From JAFGIT01 sp016929465 [NCBI: Candidatus Coatesbacteria bacterium] (lineage in GTDB: Bacteria; B130-G9): DNA of 6,247 bases. Under the pieces are notes generated by a model. The model was not told where the DNA came from and did no database searches. It saw nothing but the letters and a program-made list of their open reading frames with translations. Location of the stretch: assembly GCA_016929465.1 (NCBI GenBank), contig JAFGIT010000175.1, forward strand, positions 1-6,247, given 5' to 3'. The translations under genes were made by a program, and so were the position numbers. Position 1 is the stretch's first letter. The number at the start of each line of letters is the position of its first letter. Of the stretch, positions 702 to 6,003 are shown one piece after another.

Positions 702-1217
702 TTATTGGCTTCCTTCAATCAGAAGCAGCACCGTATCGCCAATCACCTTCTGGCGTATCGGGAGGTCTTTGGGTAGTCGGACCTCGTTCAGCTCAAACCT
801 CGAGACCTGTATCGCGATCAGTTTCGGGCGGACCTCCTCTGGAGAGAGCAGAATGTGTTTCAATATCCCGAGATAGCCGCGTTCGTATGGTGGATCGGCG
901 AATATTATGTCGAATTCGGATGGATCGGACCTCTTCTTCAAGAACCTGATCGCGTCTATAGGGAATACGGTGCATCTATCGGTCAAATGTGACTTTTCTA
1001 TGTTATCGCGCAGAGTCTTGAGCACGGTGCGATCCTGCTCAACGAAAGTTGCGGATGCGGCCCCCCGGTTGATTGCTTCGAGGCCCACCGAGCCGGTCCC
1101 CGCGAAGAGGTCGAGAAAAGACGCGCCGGGAAGGTAGCCTGCGATGGTGTCCATCAAGACCTTTCTGACGCGCGAGGTTGTGGGTCTTATCTTAAGAGAC
1201 TTCGATGCGGATTTCAT
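702..1217 (-). CDS. rsmD: RsmD family 16S rRNA (guanine-N2) methyltransferase, short N-terminus
   Basis: RsmD transfers methyl from S-adenosylmethionine to N2 of G966 (E. coli numbering) in 16S rRNA during 30S assembly. Family marks, numbered on the 171-residue form: RPTTSRVRKVL at 11-21, SAM-binding motif I FLDLFAGTGSVGLEA from about 34, acidic motif FVEQD near 58-62, and catalytic DPPY at 108-111. The start is uncertain. I chose ATG at 1217 because GGTGAGG ends 8 bases upstream of it; an in-frame GTG at 1271 would add 18 residues but has no Shine-Dalgarno-like sequence. With either start, the usual RsmD opening strand (MRIIGG-like, then K-G-R) is not recognisable. It is the last gene of the minus-strand run, 95 bases after the desulfurase stop (41 if the GTG is used), and the stop is TAA at 704-702. 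Function is well supported; the N-terminus is the odd part. Confidence 0.88.
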   Translation of the reverse strand: MKSASKSLKIRPTTSRVRKVLMDTIAGYLPGASFLDLFAGTGSVGLEAINRGAASATFVEQDRTVLKTLRDNIEKSHLTDRCTVFPIDAIRFLKKRSDPSEFDIIFADPPYERGYLGILKHILLSPEEVRPKLIAIQVSRFELNEVRLPKDLPIRQKVIGDTVLLLIEGSQ

Positions 1218-1277
1218 TGATTTCGCCTCACCATCGAAATGCGCCCAGGCGTCCTGCTCTGCGCCGGTCACTACTTT

Positions 1278-1312: not shown

Positions 1313-2530
1313 TTAGCTCGCTATCGCCTCCATAGCCGAGACCAGCGCCTCACACTCCTCGATCGTGCTATACGGCCCGAAGGAGACTCTCAGGACGTCA
1401 TCCCCGCCGCGGGTGCTGAACCAATAGTGGACGCAGTTCTTGCCCGCCCGTATCATAAGCCCATACTCGTCGTTGAGACGCTTCGCGAGAGGCCTGGCCT
1501 CCATGCCGTCAACCCTGAATGAGAGTATCACACCGCGCGATGCGGCATTCTCTGGTCCGAGTATCGAGACGCTGGGTATCTTTGCCAATCCCTCGGTCAG
1601 GGCCTCATTTAGAGTGATTACGTGCTTTGCGATCTCATCCTGGCCTATATCCTGGATGGTCCCGAGCGCCGCCGCCAATCCCATGAGTCCAGGGCAGTTC
1701 TGAAGGCCTGCTTCGAGCCTCCAGGGCAATTCCGTGAATATGATGCCCTTACTCTTCGATATCCAAAGAGCTGTCCCGCCTCCTACGAGACAGTGGCCAA
1801 GCTTCTCCAGGAGGGCAAATTTCCCATAGAGAATGCCGACACCTGAAGGCCCCAGAGCCTTGTGCGACGAGAATGCCAGGAAGTCACAGTCGAGAGCCCG
1901 CACGTCCAGCTTCGAGGTCAAAGGGCTCTGTGCAGCATCGAATAGGACCAGCGCTCCGTTTGTGTGCGCAATATCTATGATCTCCTTAATCGGGAAAGAG
2001 ACGCCCGTGAGGTTCGATTTGTGAAGCACGCTCACGAGCCTCGGCCTCTTGCTTTCCACCATCGTCCGGAAGGCCTTTAGGTCGAAGCTGGAGTCCGGCT
2101 TGGTCTTGACAAAGGATAGAGATATCTTGCCCCTTTCTCGCAGGCACATCCAGGGAAGGGTGTTGGAGTTATGCTCGAAGTCGGAGATTATGACGTGGTC
2201 CCCCTCACAGAAAGGAAACGCCATCGCGAGCAGGTTGATTGACTCCGTTGTGTTCTTGGTGACCACGATCTCATTCGGGGATGCTGCATTCAGAAAGCGT
2301 GCTATCGTCTCGCGTGCCCCATTCCAGCATTCAGTCGCCTTATTTCCGAAGGCATGATCTGCGCGACCTACACAGCCCGGGAACTGGGTGTAGTACCTCA
2401 ACTGAGCGTCGATAGCGGGCTGGCAAATCGCGGTGGTACACGCGCTGTCCAAGTAAATGGGGTGCTTTCCTCCGTCAGTCTGACAGATAGCGGGGAATAG
2501 CTTACGGATTTCATTGACGTCATAGGCCAT
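1313..2530 (-). CDS. SufS-type (group II) cysteine desulfurase-like aminotransferase class V enzyme
   Basis: A PLP enzyme expected to convert cysteine to alanine and hold the sulfur as a persulfide for delivery to an acceptor. The 405 residues are full length for SufS/CsdA. Visible marks: YLDSA at 26-30, FEHNSN at 118-123 (His120 stacks on PLP), FDAAQ at 197-201 (Asp198), SSHKALGPSG with PLP lysine Lys224, PWRLEAG at 269-275, RAGKNC with catalytic Cys366, and RVSFGPYST with substrate-carboxylate Arg381. The Cys366-to-Arg381 distance matches SufS, so the sulfur-accepting cysteine is in register. Differences: the usual GHHCAQP context reads GKNCVHY, and EAGTPN reads EAGLQN. ATG at 2530 has AGGGAG 11 bases upstream, a longish spacing, overlapping the stop of the preceding small gene 15 bases away. 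No sufB/C/D or iscU lies nearby; its partner is more likely the PP-loop enzyme upstream. A related lyase or aminotransferase activity is the main alternative. Confidence 0.9.
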   Translation of the reverse strand: MAYDVNEIRKLFPAICQTDGGKHPIYLDSACTTAICQPAIDAQLRYYTQFPGCVGRADHAFGNKATECWNGARETIARFLNAASPNEIVVTKNTTESINLLAMAFPFCEGDHVIISDFEHNSNTLPWMCLRERGKISLSFVKTKPDSSFDLKAFRTMVESKRPRLVSVLHKSNLTGVSFPIKEIIDIAHTNGALVLFDAAQSPLTSKLDVRALDCDFLAFSSHKALGPSGVGILYGKFALLEKLGHCLVGGGTALWISKSKGIIFTELPWRLEAGLQNCPGLMGLAAALGTIQDIGQDEIAKHVITLNEALTEGLAKIPSVSILGPENAASRGVILSFRVDGMEARPLAKRLNDEYGLMIRAGKNCVHYWFSTRGGDDVLRVSFGPYSTIEECEALVSAMEAIAS

Positions 2531-2545
2531 GTCTATATTGTCTCC

Positions 2546-2752
2546 CTAACTCCCTTGGATTGCGTCTTGTTTCATTCTTCGGTAACCGGACGGTAGCCCG
2601 GCAAAAAAGCGCCAGACCCGCCAATAAAGCGAGAACCAGCGCGGATCTCTCAGGACGAGAAAGGTCAAGGCGCAGACGCCAGCGCCGCCGAACAATATCG
2701 ATATCCATATAAATCTGAGAATGCCGCCCTTCTTATCCTTCTTCATCATCAT
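2546..2752 (-). CDS. Small single-pass membrane protein, 68 residues, function unknown
   Basis: I do not recognise a family. The protein opens with a basic stretch (MMMKKDKK), then one clear hydrophobic segment at about residues 11-34 (ILRFIWISIL... to ...LTFLVL), then an aromatic and arginine-rich tail (RDPRWF, YWRVWRFF, GYRRMK). By the positive-inside trend both ends are basic, so orientation is unclear. The start ATG overlaps the TGA of the PP-loop gene as ATGA, with GGAG six bases upstream inside that gene; two further ATG codons follow directly, so initiation could use any of the three. Its TAG lies inside the Shine-Dalgarno region of the desulfurase gene. This coupled position, between an ATP pyrophosphatase and a desulfurase, is the best evidence that it is real; it may anchor or bridge the two at the membrane. 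That role is inference. Confidence 0.72.
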   Translation of the reverse strand: MMMKKDKKGGILRFIWISILFGGAGVCALTFLVLRDPRWFSLYWRVWRFFAGLPSGYRRMKQDAIQGS

Positions 2753-3501
2753 CTTGTCTCCAGTCCAAGTCGTTGCCTCCGCTGCTTCAGCACTTCGTCT
2801 AGATCCAGCCCCTTTTCCTTGAAGAACTCGACGATGAGCGTCTTGGCCCATTGAAGGTTCTTCTCGAGGTGTTTGAATACGTCCTCCTGCTGGTGTGGGT
2901 AGAAGGGGTTGTCCGAGAATAGGACATCGAAGAATGCGAAGAGACAAAATGGCTGCTTGTGGATATGGGAGCCCTTCGCCCCGGGGACACGGACGCGCGT
3001 CCCGAAATCGATCCCGAGGTCGGCGAGCTTCTCGTCCTCAGCCTCTGTCGAGAAGTCGTAGGCGGGACTCGTGAAATCTATGTCGTATTCTCTATAGTAG
3101 TCGCTCAAGACCTTCAGGGTGCCTTCCATCTGTTCTGGATGCTGGCCCTGCTCTCGGATTGAGCCATCGGAATGGGCCGTGATGTCGTTTTCGAGACAAT
3201 AGCAGATCGCCCTGGTATGCATTATCAGCTTACAGCTCATACAGACCAGATTGAATTGCTTGGCGTTTCGAACCTGTGACGCGAGCCACCACTTGCGGAT
3301 ATTGATCAGGTCAAACCTGACTCTGTCTTCGCCGAATACGTTGATGACTCGCTGGGCGGATTTTCGAGCGTTTTTCAAAAAGAGGTCCGCACCGTAGTCG
3401 AATGTAATGAGGTGGACTGCATCGAATTTCTCCAATAGAAGGCACGCAACCAACGTGGAGTCGACGCCTCCCGAAAACATTACGCTCGCTCGTTCGCCCA
3501 A
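2749..3501 (-). CDS. PP-loop ATP pyrophosphatase (ThiI/QueC-like), probable thiolation or amidation enzyme
   Basis: Belongs to the adenine-nucleotide alpha-hydrolase (PP-loop) superfamily, whose members adenylate a carbonyl and then replace AMP with sulfur or nitrogen. The signature SGGVDST is at residues 10-16 of the 250-residue form. A second conserved-looking block is CMSCK (Cys87, Cys90), followed by the helix AICYCLE and then DGSIREQGQHPEQ, resembling the C-x-x-C and downstream glycine/glutamine regions of ThiI-, TtcA- or QueC-like enzymes. The C-terminal third (after about residue 190) is helical and charged. I chose TTG at 3501 because AGAGG sits six bases upstream; an in-frame TTG at 3528 has no such site, and ATG at 3480 would cut into the first strand. 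It is first in a coupled run with the membrane protein and desulfurase, favouring a sulfur-transfer role. Alternatives are an amidotransferase (as in WbpG/PseA sugar enzymes) or a nitrile-forming enzyme. Substrate unknown. Confidence 0.85.
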   Translation of the reverse strand: MGERASVMFSGGVDSTLVACLLLEKFDAVHLITFDYGADLFLKNARKSAQRVINVFGEDRVRFDLINIRKWWLASQVRNAKQFNLVCMSCKLIMHTRAICYCLENDITAHSDGSIREQGQHPEQMEGTLKVLSDYYREYDIDFTSPAYDFSTEAEDEKLADLGIDFGTRVRVPGAKGSHIHKQPFCLFAFFDVLFSDNPFYPHQQEDVFKHLEKNLQWAKTLIVEFFKEKGLDLDEVLKQRRQRLGLETR

Positions 3502-3507
3502 ACTATA

Positions 3508-3512
3508 CCTCT
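3508..3512 (-). promoter_or_regulatory. Shine-Dalgarno site deciding the PP-loop start
   Basis: On the minus strand AGAGG is followed after six bases by TTG at 3501-3499. The competing TTG nine codons upstream (3528) lacks a purine-rich site at usable distance. Both TTG codons are followed by GGC, so a short direct repeat TTGGGC is present. Confidence 0.5.
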
Positions 3513-3563
3513 GAGTTTGTTTGCCCAACTGAATCAGCCGGATGGATTAACAACACATCGAGA

Positions 3564-3591
3564 AACGTATCACAGCCATAGCGCTTTTCAA
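3564..3591 (-). promoter_or_regulatory. Candidate promoter for the PP-loop operon
   Basis: On the minus strand TTGAAA (3591-3586) is followed after 16 bases by TACGTT (3569-3564), preceded by TG in the extended -10 position (TGATACGTT). The -35 is a 5 of 6 match, the -10 only 3 of 6. Predicted transcription would begin near 3557, leaving about 55 bases of leader. This was judged by eye only and sigma-factor preferences are unknown. Confidence 0.3.
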
Positions 3592-3607
3592 GATTCTATG
3601 AAGAATC
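3592..3607. repeat. Palindromic dyad next to the minus-strand promoter
   Basis: GATTCT (3592-3597) and AGAATC (3602-3607) form a perfect 6-base inverted repeat around ATGA. It abuts the candidate -35 of the PP-loop operon, a typical place for an operator or activator site, but no regulator is encoded in the window and the match could be chance. Confidence 0.35.
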
Positions 3608-3637
3608 GCTCAGATGATGAAACAACCGTGGTGGCCA

Positions 3638-3675
3638 CTCAGACTTGATTCGGGATAGAGTCTGGGCAGTCGCCC
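3638..3675. repeat. Overlapping inverted repeats in the divergent spacer
   Basis: CTCAGACT (3638-3645) can pair with AGTCTGGG (3659-3666), eight pairs with one G-T, around a 13-base loop. Its right arm overlaps a second stem, GGGC (3664-3667) with GCCC (3672-3675). The two stems are mutually exclusive. A perfect 8-base palindrome GTGGCCAC lies just to the left (3631-3638). If either strand is transcribed here these could switch; more simply, they mark protein-binding DNA. No known riboswitch class is recognisable. Confidence 0.3.
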
Positions 3676-3691
3676 TGAGCATACTTGAGTC

Positions 3692-3719
3692 CGATTTGAT
3701 GTCGTCTCGACTCGAATCG
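3692..3719. repeat. Strong inverted repeat just upstream of the WbqC promoter
   Basis: The best dyad in the window. CGATTTGA (3692-3699) pairs with TCGAATCG (3712-3719) with one G-T, and GTCG (3701-3704) pairs with CGAC (3708-3711) around a TCT loop. This gives twelve pairs with a single unpaired T at 3700. It ends three bases before the candidate -35 TTGACC, a position suited to an operator or activator site. No T-run follows on either strand, so a terminator is unlikely. Confidence 0.5.
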
Positions 3720-3759: not shown

Positions 3760-4455
3760 ATGAGAGCAGTAATACTCCAGCCGGGATACCTGCCGTGGAT
3801 AGGTTTTTTTGACCTCGCGGCGAAGTCGGACATATTCGTGATTCTCGATTGCGTGCAGTTTGACAAGCGGTCCTGGCGTAACAGGAATCGGATCCGGACA
3901 TCGACCGGCTGGCAGTGGTTGAGCGTCCCCGTTATTACTAAGGGAAGGTTCACACAGCGGGTCAGTGAGACACTGATTGATAATACTCGCAGCTGGGCGC
4001 ATAAACACCTGAGCGCAATTAAGACGCACTATTCAAAGGCTCCTTACTTCGCGGAGTTCATTCCGCTCTTCGAAGAAGCGTTCAACAGAGACTGGGAGAG
4101 TCTGCTCGAGCTCGATATGTATTTCATAAGGATGCTCGATGACATCTTCGAACTAAGGACGAACTATGTGATGGCATCGACTCTCGAGCCTACTGGAAAG
4201 AAGGCCGATCTGATCCTCGAGCTCGCCAAGGTAGTCCATGCTGACCACTACCTGAATGGTGACATGGGGCGCTCCTATCTGAGCCCGGAGCCGTTCGCGG
4301 CGAATGGCATCGAGCTCGAATTCCACAATTATGTTCATCCCACATACAAGCAGTGCTACGAGGGCTTTGAGTCGCACCTTTCAGCCATTGATCTGTTGTT
4401 CAACTGCGGCAGGGAGGGGAGGAAGCTCATTGTCGGAAGCTCGGATACGATATAG
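3760..4455 (+). CDS. WbqC-like family protein
   Basis: A 231-residue soluble protein of the WbqC-like family, named after an O-antigen-cluster gene; the biochemical activity of the family is not established to my knowledge. Recognisable marks are the N-terminal ILQPGYLPWIGFFDL (residues 5-19), DIFVILDCVQFDKRSWRNRNRI (24-45), the WLSVPV strand (53-58), then YLNGDMGRSYL (164-174), and a C-terminal ELEFHNYVHPTYKQ segment (185-198). Length is normal. The start is fixed by family conservation, since the LQPGYLPW motif begins five residues in, yet no ribosome-binding site precedes it. It leads a plus-strand operon, 15 bases ahead of the radical SAM gene, and is divergent from the PP-loop operon. 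The family is common in surface-polysaccharide and sugar-modification loci, so a role in making or modifying a glycan or its precursor is plausible but inferred. Confidence 0.88.
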   Translation: MRAVILQPGYLPWIGFFDLAAKSDIFVILDCVQFDKRSWRNRNRIRTSTGWQWLSVPVITKGRFTQRVSETLIDNTRSWAHKHLSAIKTHYSKAPYFAEFIPLFEEAFNRDWESLLELDMYFIRMLDDIFELRTNYVMASTLEPTGKKADLILELAKVVHADHYLNGDMGRSYLSPEPFAANGIELEFHNYVHPTYKQCYEGFESHLSAIDLLFNCGREGRKLIVGSSDTI

Positions 4456-4470
4456 CAGGGATATGGCGAA

Positions 4471-6003
4471 ATGAAGGATTTCAAAGTCTGCCTGGTGGCG
4501 CTCTTCAACACCGAGCTCTCGGGGGTGCGCTACATCCACTCGCTCCTGAAATCAAAGGGATACGATGCCTCGATAATCTTCTTCAAGAGGCTCAATATCA
4601 ACGACGGCAAGCCTCCAACCGAAAAGGAACTGGAGCTATTCGGCAGCCTCGTAAAGCGCATCAATCCGGACCTCTTAGGGATAAGCATCGGCTGCTCAAC
4701 ATTCCGAAATACCGCCGCCGAACTCACTCAGAAGACCAGGCAGGCCGTGAAATGCCCCGTTGTATGGGGAGGAGTCCACGTCACGGTCACTGCCGACCGC
4801 ACCTTGACCGAGCACGACATGCTGGTGATTGGCGAGGGCGAGGGGACGATGCTCGAGATCTGCGACAGACTCTCGGAGGGAAAGAGCATCGCCGATGTAA
4901 GGAATCTCTGGCTCAATAGGGATGGCGAAGAGATCAAGAATCCCGTAAGGCCGCCAATCGCAGACCTCGATTCGCTTCCCTTCCACGACTTTACGAACGA
5001 GGCGAAGTACTTCATCAACGGCGATGAGCTCTTCGAGTATGACCCGCTCGTCAAAGAGCACGACCTCTATCAGATCATGACCACCCGCGGCTGCCCATTT
5101 GCATGCACATACTGCGCCAACAGCGTATATCACCGCCTCTATCGCGGGATGGGCAAGATAGTTCGGACACGGTCGGTAGAGAACGTGATCGAGGAGCTCG
5201 AATACGCGAACAAGATGCTTCCGGACATAAAGCAGGTGGCATTCTATGACGACGTCTTTGGGCTGGACCTCGAATGGACGAAGGAATTCTGCGAGCAGTA
5301 CAAGAAGAAAATTCGCATCCCGTATTGGGTCTATGTCCATCCCAAGACCGTTACTGAAGAGCTGATTCGTATGCTCAAGGAGAGCGGGCTCTTCTACGCG
5401 GACATGGGCATCCAGAGCGGCTCCCAGCGAGTGCGGAACCAATTCTTCAAGCGGATGGACAAGACTGAGGACATCCAGCGAGCAATGTCCATCCTGAACA
5501 AGCTGAAGGTGAAACCCAGGCTCGATTTCATCATGGACAACCCGTTCGAGGAGTCCGAGGACAAGCAGGAGATGCTCGATTTGCTTCTCAGCTTCAGGCG
5601 CCCATTCGAGTTCAGGCTCTATTCATTGGCCTATTTCCCCGGCGTCGAACTCACTCAAATGGCCCTGGATCGAGGCTATATAAGGGAAGAGAACGTAGAA
5701 GATGTCGCCTGCAAGACGATGACGCAGTGGTTCGTTTCCTCCGACTTCGAGCGCTCGAAGGAGGACGTCTTTTTCAACAGCCTGGTCTCGCTAACTGGCA
5801 AATCATTCGTGCCCAGATTCTTCATACGTTTCCTCTCGAAGCTGACCTTCCTTAAGCGATTCCCATTCCCTCTCGTCGTGCTATCCACGGTCGCGAATCT
5901 GATTCGTTTCTTCTGGACCGGCATCAAGCTCGCATTGAAAGGTGAGGTCTCATTTGCGATGGTCAGAAAGCACCTGAAATTCGTATTTACGGTGAATAGG
6001 TAG
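4471..6003 (+). CDS. B12-binding-domain radical SAM protein with hydrophobic C-terminus
   Basis: A 510-residue enzyme of the BchE-like class. The N-terminal Rossmann-type cobalamin-binding domain (about 1-150) shows SGVRYIHSLLKSKGY, LLGISIGCST, VVWGGVHVT (98-106) and VIGEGEGTMLEI (119-130). It lacks DxHxxG, as is usual in this class. The radical SAM barrel begins at YQIMTTRGCPFACTYC, with the [4Fe-4S] ligands Cys208, Cys212 and Cys215, and continues through AFYDDVF (257-263), GIQSGS (313-318) and DFIMDNPFE (352-360). Such enzymes methylate unreactive carbons or do related radical chemistry. The tail (about 448-490) has hydrophobic, basic stretches including FPFPLVVLSTVANLIRFF, suggesting membrane association or a lipid-linked substrate. 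ATG at 4471 has AGGG ten bases upstream, 15 bases after the WbqC stop. Substrate is unknown; methylation of a surface glycolipid or a specialised metabolite is inference. Confidence 0.92.
   Translation: MKDFKVCLVALFNTELSGVRYIHSLLKSKGYDASIIFFKRLNINDGKPPTEKELELFGSLVKRINPDLLGISIGCSTFRNTAAELTQKTRQAVKCPVVWGGVHVTVTADRTLTEHDMLVIGEGEGTMLEICDRLSEGKSIADVRNLWLNRDGEEIKNPVRPPIADLDSLPFHDFTNEAKYFINGDELFEYDPLVKEHDLYQIMTTRGCPFACTYCANSVYHRLYRGMGKIVRTRSVENVIEELEYANKMLPDIKQVAFYDDVFGLDLEWTKEFCEQYKKKIRIPYWVYVHPKTVTEELIRMLKESGLFYADMGIQSGSQRVRNQFFKRMDKTEDIQRAMSILNKLKVKPRLDFIMDNPFEESEDKQEMLDLLLSFRRPFEFRLYSLAYFPGVELTQMALDRGYIREENVEDVACKTMTQWFVSSDFERSKEDVFFNSLVSLTGKSFVPRFFIRFLSKLTFLKRFPFPLVVLSTVANLIRFFWTGIKLALKGEVSFAMVRKHLKFVFTVNR

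Follow-up and report, generated by a model that had tools for sequence, protein, structure and literature searches.

In Erwinia amylovora, the PP-loop enzyme YcfA and the pyridoxal phosphate (PLP) enzyme YcfC are required for 6-thioguanosine (PMC6225789), and YcfA together with the NUDIX protein YcfB is described as necessary and sufficient (PMC7994395). A prediction table in the latter source gives, for the tgs operon of Staphylococcus chromogenes, the SufS-like TgsA, the PP-loop protein TgsB, NUDIX genes and an EmrE-like protein. Bacillus subtilis encodes a private desulfurase beside a PP-loop thiolase in the pairs NifZ–ThiI and YrvO–MnmA (PMC5372745), and DNA phosphorothioation relies on the desulfurase DndA and on DndC, a PP-loop enzyme with a three-Cys Fe-S site (PMC10853773). 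The DNA analysed here, called the window, is the entire contig C308 (JAFGIT010000175.1, 6247 bases) of a Candidatus Coatesbacteria assembly of 3.19 Mb that is 86% complete, and the context is limited to these 6247 bases. It carries adjacent genes for a PP-loop enzyme (PPL), a small membrane protein and a SufS-like cysteine desulfurase, which a sequence-only reading had proposed to be a dedicated sulfur-transfer module. Three findings support this proposal: the gene order was found in two phyla, the desulfurases branch as a clade of their own, and YcfA, not QueC, is the best match of the PPL.

Results

The Three Genes and the Recurrence of Their Order

The PPL gene (positions 2749–3501, minus strand, ATG at 3501) encodes a YcfA-like protein of 250 amino acids (aa) with the motif SGGVDST, a C-x-x-C pair (C87xxC90K) and a third conserved cysteine, C186. 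An alternative TTG start at position 3528 would add 9 aa. The stop of this gene overlaps by ATGA the gene of a 68-aa single-pass membrane protein (2546–2752, minus strand), and a spacer of 15 bases (2531–2545) leads to the desulfurase gene (1313–2530, minus strand). The 405-aa desulfurase, which appears to be dedicated to the module, possesses the catalytic residues Lys224 and Cys366 and the private motifs YLDxAC (C31), C53-x-GR and C366-x-H-x-W. The sequence-only reading had described SGGVDST and the C-x-x-C pair, the 68-residue protein with its ATGA overlap and the intact Lys224 and Cys366 15 bases further on; all were found again, C186 being an addition.

The sister genome possesses the PPL, the membrane protein, the desulfurase and an RsmD-like gene in identical order (G001:C90), with aa identities of 82, 74, 72 and 64%, respectively. 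The ratios of nonsynonymous to synonymous change (pN/pS) between the window and G001:C90 were 0.15, 0.24, 0.26 and 0.38, respectively, the synonymous sites being saturated or nearly so. These same-order orthologues and the low pN/pS mark the PPL, the membrane protein and the desulfurase as real genes constrained by purifying selection.

The order PPL, small membrane open reading frame (ORF), desulfurase was observed in the window and its Coatesbacteria relatives (G001:C90, G001:C56, G003:C173 and G002:C37), and also in seven loci of the Myxococcota (L035, L037, L043, L045, L047, L053 and L054). In the Coatesbacteria set with genome G037, 8 of the 16 PPL matches were in desulfurase-bearing loci (the window, G001:C90, and two each in G001:C56, G002:C37 and G003:C173). 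A scan with the PPL gave 80 loci, about half of which correspond to a more distant PPL subfamily (Desulfobulbaceae and others). The module desulfurase was located within approximately 1.5 kb in ten of them: the seven Myxococcota loci, L027, L028 and L066. Adjacency of the two enzymes, on which the sequence-only reading depended, is therefore rare across the PPL family as a whole, although not within the module-bearing clades. Places seen twice were counted once (L026 is G003:C128, L027 is G002:C37, L028 is G003:C173, L030 is G002:C125, and L007 is L025), and the ordinary SufS-like gene beside NifU_N, 4–6 kb off in L049 and L055, was not counted as a module.

A Myxococcota sample comprised 282 genomes from the phylum of L045 (G062), into which L037 (NCBI label Pseudomonadota) also falls. 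The PPL was present at E ≤ 1e-30 in 36 of these genomes. Twenty-one strong loci (E ≤ 1e-95) were fetched and 20 could be evaluated, L161 being left out with its PPL at the contig end; G316:C3 and G321:C951 were not fetched. The membrane gene was present in 18 of the 20 and absent from L170 and L171. Several loci of this sample were treated as places of the 80-locus scan owing to matching genome handles or identical membrane proteins. The seven with a module desulfurase were those of the earlier scan and therefore provide a denominator, not new cases; all were of the GCCNK type described below, and the remaining 11 membrane genes were of a CCGG type. The same genomes contained ten desulfurases at E ≤ 1e-125, nine with the private signature (G084 was without it), seven of which adjoined a PPL. 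At the CCGG-type locus L163, a class V desulfurase (2772–3701) directly followed the membrane gene, in the slot held elsewhere by the SufS-like enzyme. Its best model was NifS (242 bits, below the NifS cut-off), and the gene was cut by the locus end.

A larger form of the module was visible in G001:C56 (L019), G003:C173 (L021) and G002:C37 (L020), with a PPL, one or two membrane proteins starting with MACCG (128 and 187 aa), the desulfurase and a second PPL. It opened with an Rrf2 regulator (Pfam) in G001:C56 and G003:C173, and none was seen in L020. The 187-aa MACCG protein looks like a fusion of two membrane types.

The Desulfurase Clade

The best NCBI model for the window desulfurase was SufS (TIGR01979), with 343.3 bits, below the cut-off of 475.1. 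The NCBI DndA model gave 110.9 bits for a cut-off of 480, and the protein hit the PADLOC models DndA (149 bits) and SspA (153 bits) through its class V kinship. A tree was made of 13 module desulfurases (the window, G001:C90, G002:C16, G001:C56, L027, L028, L035, L037, L043, L045, L047, L054 and L066) and, as the outgroup, of 26 SufS-like best matches from other genomes, a partial sample of SufS; L053 was excluded, as its contig ends within the desulfurase gene. The 13 module desulfurases formed a single clade with a support of 100/100, apart from the 26 SufS-like sequences. The private signature, YLDxAC (FDNAC in L035), Cys-x-Gly-Arg at C53 and C-x-H-x-W at the active-site Cys, was present in 13/13 module desulfurases and in 0/26 of the others. 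As judged from these sequences, the module desulfurases share a common descent in a clade separate from the sampled SufS-like enzymes. In two signature desulfurases of the Myxococcota sample (G243:C219 and G065:C98, in L187 and L190), an N-terminal CCSVE places a Cys-Cys in front of the desulfurase itself.

The PP-Loop Enzyme

The AlphaFold2 model of the PPL (pLDDT, the predicted local distance difference test, 89) matched YcfA of E. amylovora best among solved structures, with Z of 23.8–24.9 and a root-mean-square deviation of 1.9–2.4 over 206–210 residues at 27–28% identity. The next fold matches were ThiI (Z 15.6), argininosuccinate synthase (13.5), the [4Fe-4S] LarE (13.4) and QueC (13.0). 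Foldseek agreed on YcfA and matched the thiolases NcsA and TtuA as well, and YcfA was also top by sequence (phmmer 3e-16, profile 1.5e-25). Since YcfA is the closest by fold and by sequence, the nearest characterised kin of the PPL insert sulfur and not nitrogen, and the QueC-type assignment that the sequence-only reading had named as fatal to its proposal was not found.

Among family models, the PPL passed the Pfam DUF7411 gathering threshold (35.2 vs. 28.7 bits, residues 5–150) and the broad Pfam QueC model (31.7 bits, cut-off 22). It was below the cut-off in all 13 NCBI models matched. The scores were 32.9 vs. 150.3 bits for the QueC equivalog TIGR00364 and 18.4 vs. 150 for LarE; for ThiI, they were 15.5 vs. 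264.5 (NCBI) and 18.4 vs. 20.5 (Pfam), and for MnmA 12.7 vs. 284 (NCBI) and 14.3 vs. 20.6 (Pfam). No second domain was matched beyond the 250-aa core. Across 36 aligned relatives, C90 and C186 did not vary, and five (L031, L033, L038, L040 and L057) had Phe in place of C87. The cysteines may be either a persulfide carrier or ligands of a [4Fe-4S] cluster. A defence system was considered and not retained: PADLOC gave a single short QueC match for the PPL (24.7 bits, residues 4–68) and, for the desulfurase, class V kinship with SspA and DndA only. Up to five PPL paralogues per genome were present, in varying contexts. In three Coatesbacteria genomes (L015, L016 and L017), one paralogue lies immediately behind a KsgA gene, above the NCBI cut-off in L017, and ahead of the gene of an HDOD-domain protein, with a zinc-ribbon-like start in L015.

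The Small Membrane Protein

The 68-aa protein of the window shows one hydrophobic span (maximum Kyte-Doolittle mean of 2.18, 19 residues from residue 15), and its search in the PDB and PHROGs returned nothing meaningful. The small ORF between PPL and desulfurase in the seven Myxococcota loci also has one hydrophobic span, and GCCNK near its start. A profile built from these seven GCCNK proteins was applied to 105 loci (1.05 Mb, six frames), where 22 ORFs were above the HMMER inclusion threshold in 21 distinct places, and to 193 loci (1.39 Mb, many overlapping), where 46 ORFs at E ≤ 0.01 corresponded to 25 distinct places. All 46 were on the same strand as a PPL and after it, 44 of them within 30 bases of its stop (from an overlap of 20 bases); the exceptions, L046 and L163, were 128 and 201 bases from the PPL stop to the start of the match, respectively. 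Seven of the 25 places were the profile builders and 18 were independent, among them contigs labelled Omnitrophota and archaeon. As the loci were nearly all fetched around a PPL or a desulfurase, this result shows the position within the locus and not genome-wide exclusivity.

The 80-locus scan included 26 strong PPL loci from outside the Coatesbacteria (A2 profile E ≤ 1e-90), of which 25 were judged, L057 ending at its PPL. The membrane gene was present in 20 of these and failed in L041, L042, L050, L052 and L061 (weak, E 0.18). The pairing of the PPL with a small Cys-Cys membrane protein, with or without a desulfurase, is usual, not universal, in bacteria and archaea. In 19 aligned proteins, one Cys of the motif was present in all and the other in 18. 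By single-comparison E-values, the Coatesbacteria forms, the MACCG proteins of 128 and 187 aa, are kin to a 131-aa protein of L066, and the 68-aa protein of the window is homologous to the N-terminal half of the 187-aa protein.

Genomic Surroundings

The gene of an RsmD-like 16S rRNA methyltransferase (702–1271, minus strand; 113 bits for an NCBI cut-off of 117.5) begins 41 bases downstream of the desulfurase. It adjoins the desulfurase also in G001:C90 and G002:C16 and is probably co-transcribed with the module, no functional link being assumed. Divergent from the module, the plus strand carries, as context, genes for a WbqC-family protein (3760–4455) and a B12-binding radical SAM protein (4471–6003), relatives of which are found near other PPL loci, followed by the 5' start of the DNA polymerase III alpha gene. 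Positions 1–537, at the other contig end, encode a C-terminal fragment of a PRK09250-type class I fructose-bisphosphate aldolase.

Genes of sulfur metabolism were found near several relatives. A DsrE gene is located 3' of the desulfurase in L047, and the opposite strand of L047 and L053 carries a cysteine synthase above the cut-off and a serine acetyltransferase just below that of EpsC. On the Omnitrophota contig L036 (1–1977), the C-terminal part of MnmA, NifU_N, a PPL and a MATCC membrane protein are consecutive, and in L031 a NifU_N gene is about 3 kb away. An Rrf2 regulator is upstream of the PPL at the paralogous locus of G001 and G003. Among four Coatesbacteria genomes (completeness 83–95%), SufB/D was found in none (controls 14/14 positive), MnmA in all and NifU_N in three, including that of the window (contig C29, not the contig of the module). 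A SUF operon was thus ruled out by the 0/4 result, and so was the PPL as the sole 2-thiouridine enzyme by the MnmA genes elsewhere. The conserved module also shows that, where SufB/D is missing from a genome, a SufS-like enzyme is not simply readable as Fe-S assembly. Other desulfurase-like genes of the window's genome are on C418 and, as fragments, on C248 and C357.

NodU-type carbamoyltransferases were visible near PPL relatives in L025, L031–L035, L039, L043, L045, L046, L051, L058, L059 and L061. Many relatives are also accompanied by PMT-like membrane proteins and by B12 radical SAM proteins (Pfam on L059), the window having one of the latter. This carbamoyltransferase, PMT-like and B12 radical SAM context suggests that the product is linked to lipid or to the surface. 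A B12 radical SAM relative adjoins the lone desulfurase of G002:C16 (L120), and another is near G001:C56 (L019). Six loci (L025, L031, L039, L045, L059 and L061) all carry a NodU-type carbamoyltransferase and a PMT-like protein with a GYWDTYI-like stretch, and several of the six also a B12 radical SAM protein or a polysaccharide deacetylase.

Discussion

We consider it probable that the module is a dedicated sulfur relay in which the desulfurase feeds a membrane-tethered, YcfA-like thiolating PPL. The gene order and the desulfurase clade are observed; the path of the sulfur, the tethering and the product are inferences, set out as follows. In keeping with the chemistry of its family, the desulfurase would take the sulfur of cysteine as a persulfide on Cys366. 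The fold, motif and partner of the PPL suggest that it would receive this sulfur from the neighbouring enzyme, adenylate a carbonyl of the substrate with ATP and exchange the oxygen for sulfur. MnmA and ThiI proceed by carbonyl adenylation followed by replacement of oxygen with sulfur, and YcfA is thought to do likewise. Judging by its gene position, the small membrane protein would tether both enzymes, so that the predicted flow from desulfurase to PPL takes place at the membrane, and its Cys-Cys may relay sulfur in most relatives, not in the window. As the substrate, we weakly favour a small or lipid-linked metabolite over tRNA.

Several observations weigh against this relay. The module desulfurase was not near the PPL in 70 of the 80 scanned loci; it was present in only 7 of the 20 evaluable strong loci of the Myxococcota sample, and neither it nor the membrane gene was found in the nine weaker loci fetched. 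Conversely, two of the nine signature desulfurases (G243:C219 and G065:C98) were without a PPL within 1.5 kb, and the desulfurase of G002:C16, 71% identical to that of the window, adjoins RsmD with neither PPL nor membrane gene. YcfA is devoid of the C-x-x-C pair, and its alignment with the PPL ends before C186. The membrane protein of the window is without the Cys-Cys motif, as are those of G001:C90 and G037 (L025). The kinship between the MACCG and MGCCNK types is weak, with an hhalign probability of 32%; they are therefore equated by their position, their hydrophobicity and the Cys-Cys at the start, and their common descent was not accepted as proved. Finally, many relatives lie in a carbamoyltransferase and PMT-like context, which suggests a product with no obvious connection to sulfur.

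If the PPL were a divergent ThiI- or TtcA-type tRNA thiolase with its own desulfurase, in the manner of NifZ–ThiI, the membrane piece would be incidental. ThiI as the next fold match (Z 15.6), the NcsA and TtuA matches, three cysteines as in Fe-S-dependent tRNA thiolases, the adjoining RsmD-like gene and the published private pairs are in line with this. We nevertheless regard it as unlikely: YcfA is clearly closer, the PPL is a 250-aa core with no second domain matched and missed the ThiI and MnmA cut-offs, MnmA is encoded elsewhere in the four Coatesbacteria genomes, and up to five paralogues per genome in varying contexts would be unusual for a tRNA enzyme. A nitrogen chemistry appears distinctly unlikely. 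In it, the PPL would be a QueC- or amidotransferase-like ammonia ligase, and the desulfurase, adjacent by chance, would supply Fe-S clusters to the radical SAM neighbour. The broad Pfam QueC match (31.7 bits for a cut-off of 22), the nearby B12 radical SAM protein and the lack of a desulfurase beside most PPL relatives agree with it. The QueC equivalog score (32.9 vs. 150.3), the difference in fold match (Z 13.0 for QueC vs. about 25 for YcfA), the order kept in two phyla, the separate desulfurase clade and the second desulfurase type in the same slot argue the other way.

Fe-S loading, with the desulfurase as the Fe-S desulfurase of the genome and the PPL as its sulfur carrier, is very unlikely. 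It could account for the Rrf2 regulator that precedes the paralogous locus in G001 and G003, and for NifU_N in three of the four genomes, that of the window included, together with the missing SufB/D. However, the genome of the window has further desulfurase-like genes (C418, and the fragments on C248 and C357), NifU_N is on the separate contig C29, and cluster assembly needs no adenylating PP-loop enzyme. The synthesis of 6-thioguanine, as in the ycf and tgs operons, seems to us most unlikely, in spite of YcfA being the closest structure and of the tgs operon, in which a membrane protein accompanies a SufS-like desulfurase and a PP-loop sulfurtransferase: neither a NUDIX or HAD domain nor an EmrE-like exporter was matched among the window's eight proteins, the PPL has cysteines missing from YcfA and the membrane protein is single-pass.

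Beyond the sulfur relay in the window, it is possible, although we put it forward tentatively, that bacteria and archaea share a hitherto undescribed membrane-tethered thiolation machine. It would consist of a YcfA-like PPL, usually with a Cys-Cys membrane protein, to which a desulfurase was recruited at least twice (from the SufS-like clade and, at one locus, as a NifS-like enzyme), and, in the company of B12 radical SAM enzymes, carbamoyltransferases and PMT-like membrane proteins, it would make a carbamoylated product that contains sulfur and is linked to lipid or to the surface. YcfA-type enzymes yield thio-compounds of strong biological activity, and to our knowledge few such pathways are known. 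As the module occurs in two bacterial phyla and contigs titled Omnitrophota and archaeon likewise carry the PPL-membrane pair, a search for a sulfur-containing product becomes possible; the three desulfurase motifs can serve as handles, and the Cys-Cys membrane protein marks the PPL-membrane pair. A literature search, with most subscription journals outside it, found no printed description of a PP-loop/desulfurase/membrane module, and no paper was found in full text under the YcfA PDB codes. Private PP-loop/desulfurase pairs were already known; the novelty lies in the small membrane partner with its Cys-Cys, in the clade of the desulfurases and in the occurrence across phyla.

The published NifZ–ThiI, YrvO–MnmA, DndA–DndC and TgsA–TgsB pairs do not bear out the view of the sequence-only reading that a private desulfurase is unusual. 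Unlike the module, NifZ–ThiI and YrvO–MnmA involve tRNA thiolases of other families, and the accessible part of the source mentions no membrane partner. The module differs from Dnd by a desulfurase under the NCBI DndA cut-off and by the absence of DndB, D or E from the window's proteins. SufS is the top NCBI model for the desulfurase, which shares with it Lys224 and Cys366; unlike the SUF enzyme, it is below the SufS cut-off, has its own clade and motifs, and occurs with no SufB/D in four Coatesbacteria genomes. The [4Fe-4S] type of LarE and TtuA/NcsA share the PP-loop fold and a cysteine-based sulfur insertion; their fold matches are at Z 13.4 and lower, and no Lar partners are among the window's proteins. 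Compared with ycf and tgs, a Pfam scan of the window only showed no NUDIX partner (YcfB, TgsC) among its eight proteins, and the PPL, unlike YcfA, has the C-x-x-C pair plus a further Cys. The sequence-only reading had described known thiolation systems as generally without a membrane subunit; the tgs operon carries a membrane protein as the module does, although of the EmrE-like efflux type and not a small single-pass one. TgsA and YcfC are likened to the module desulfurase by their description only. Like YcfA–YcfC of E. amylovora and TgsB–TgsA, the module combines the same predicted PP-loop fold (YcfA, Z about 25) with a PLP desulfurase-like neighbour.

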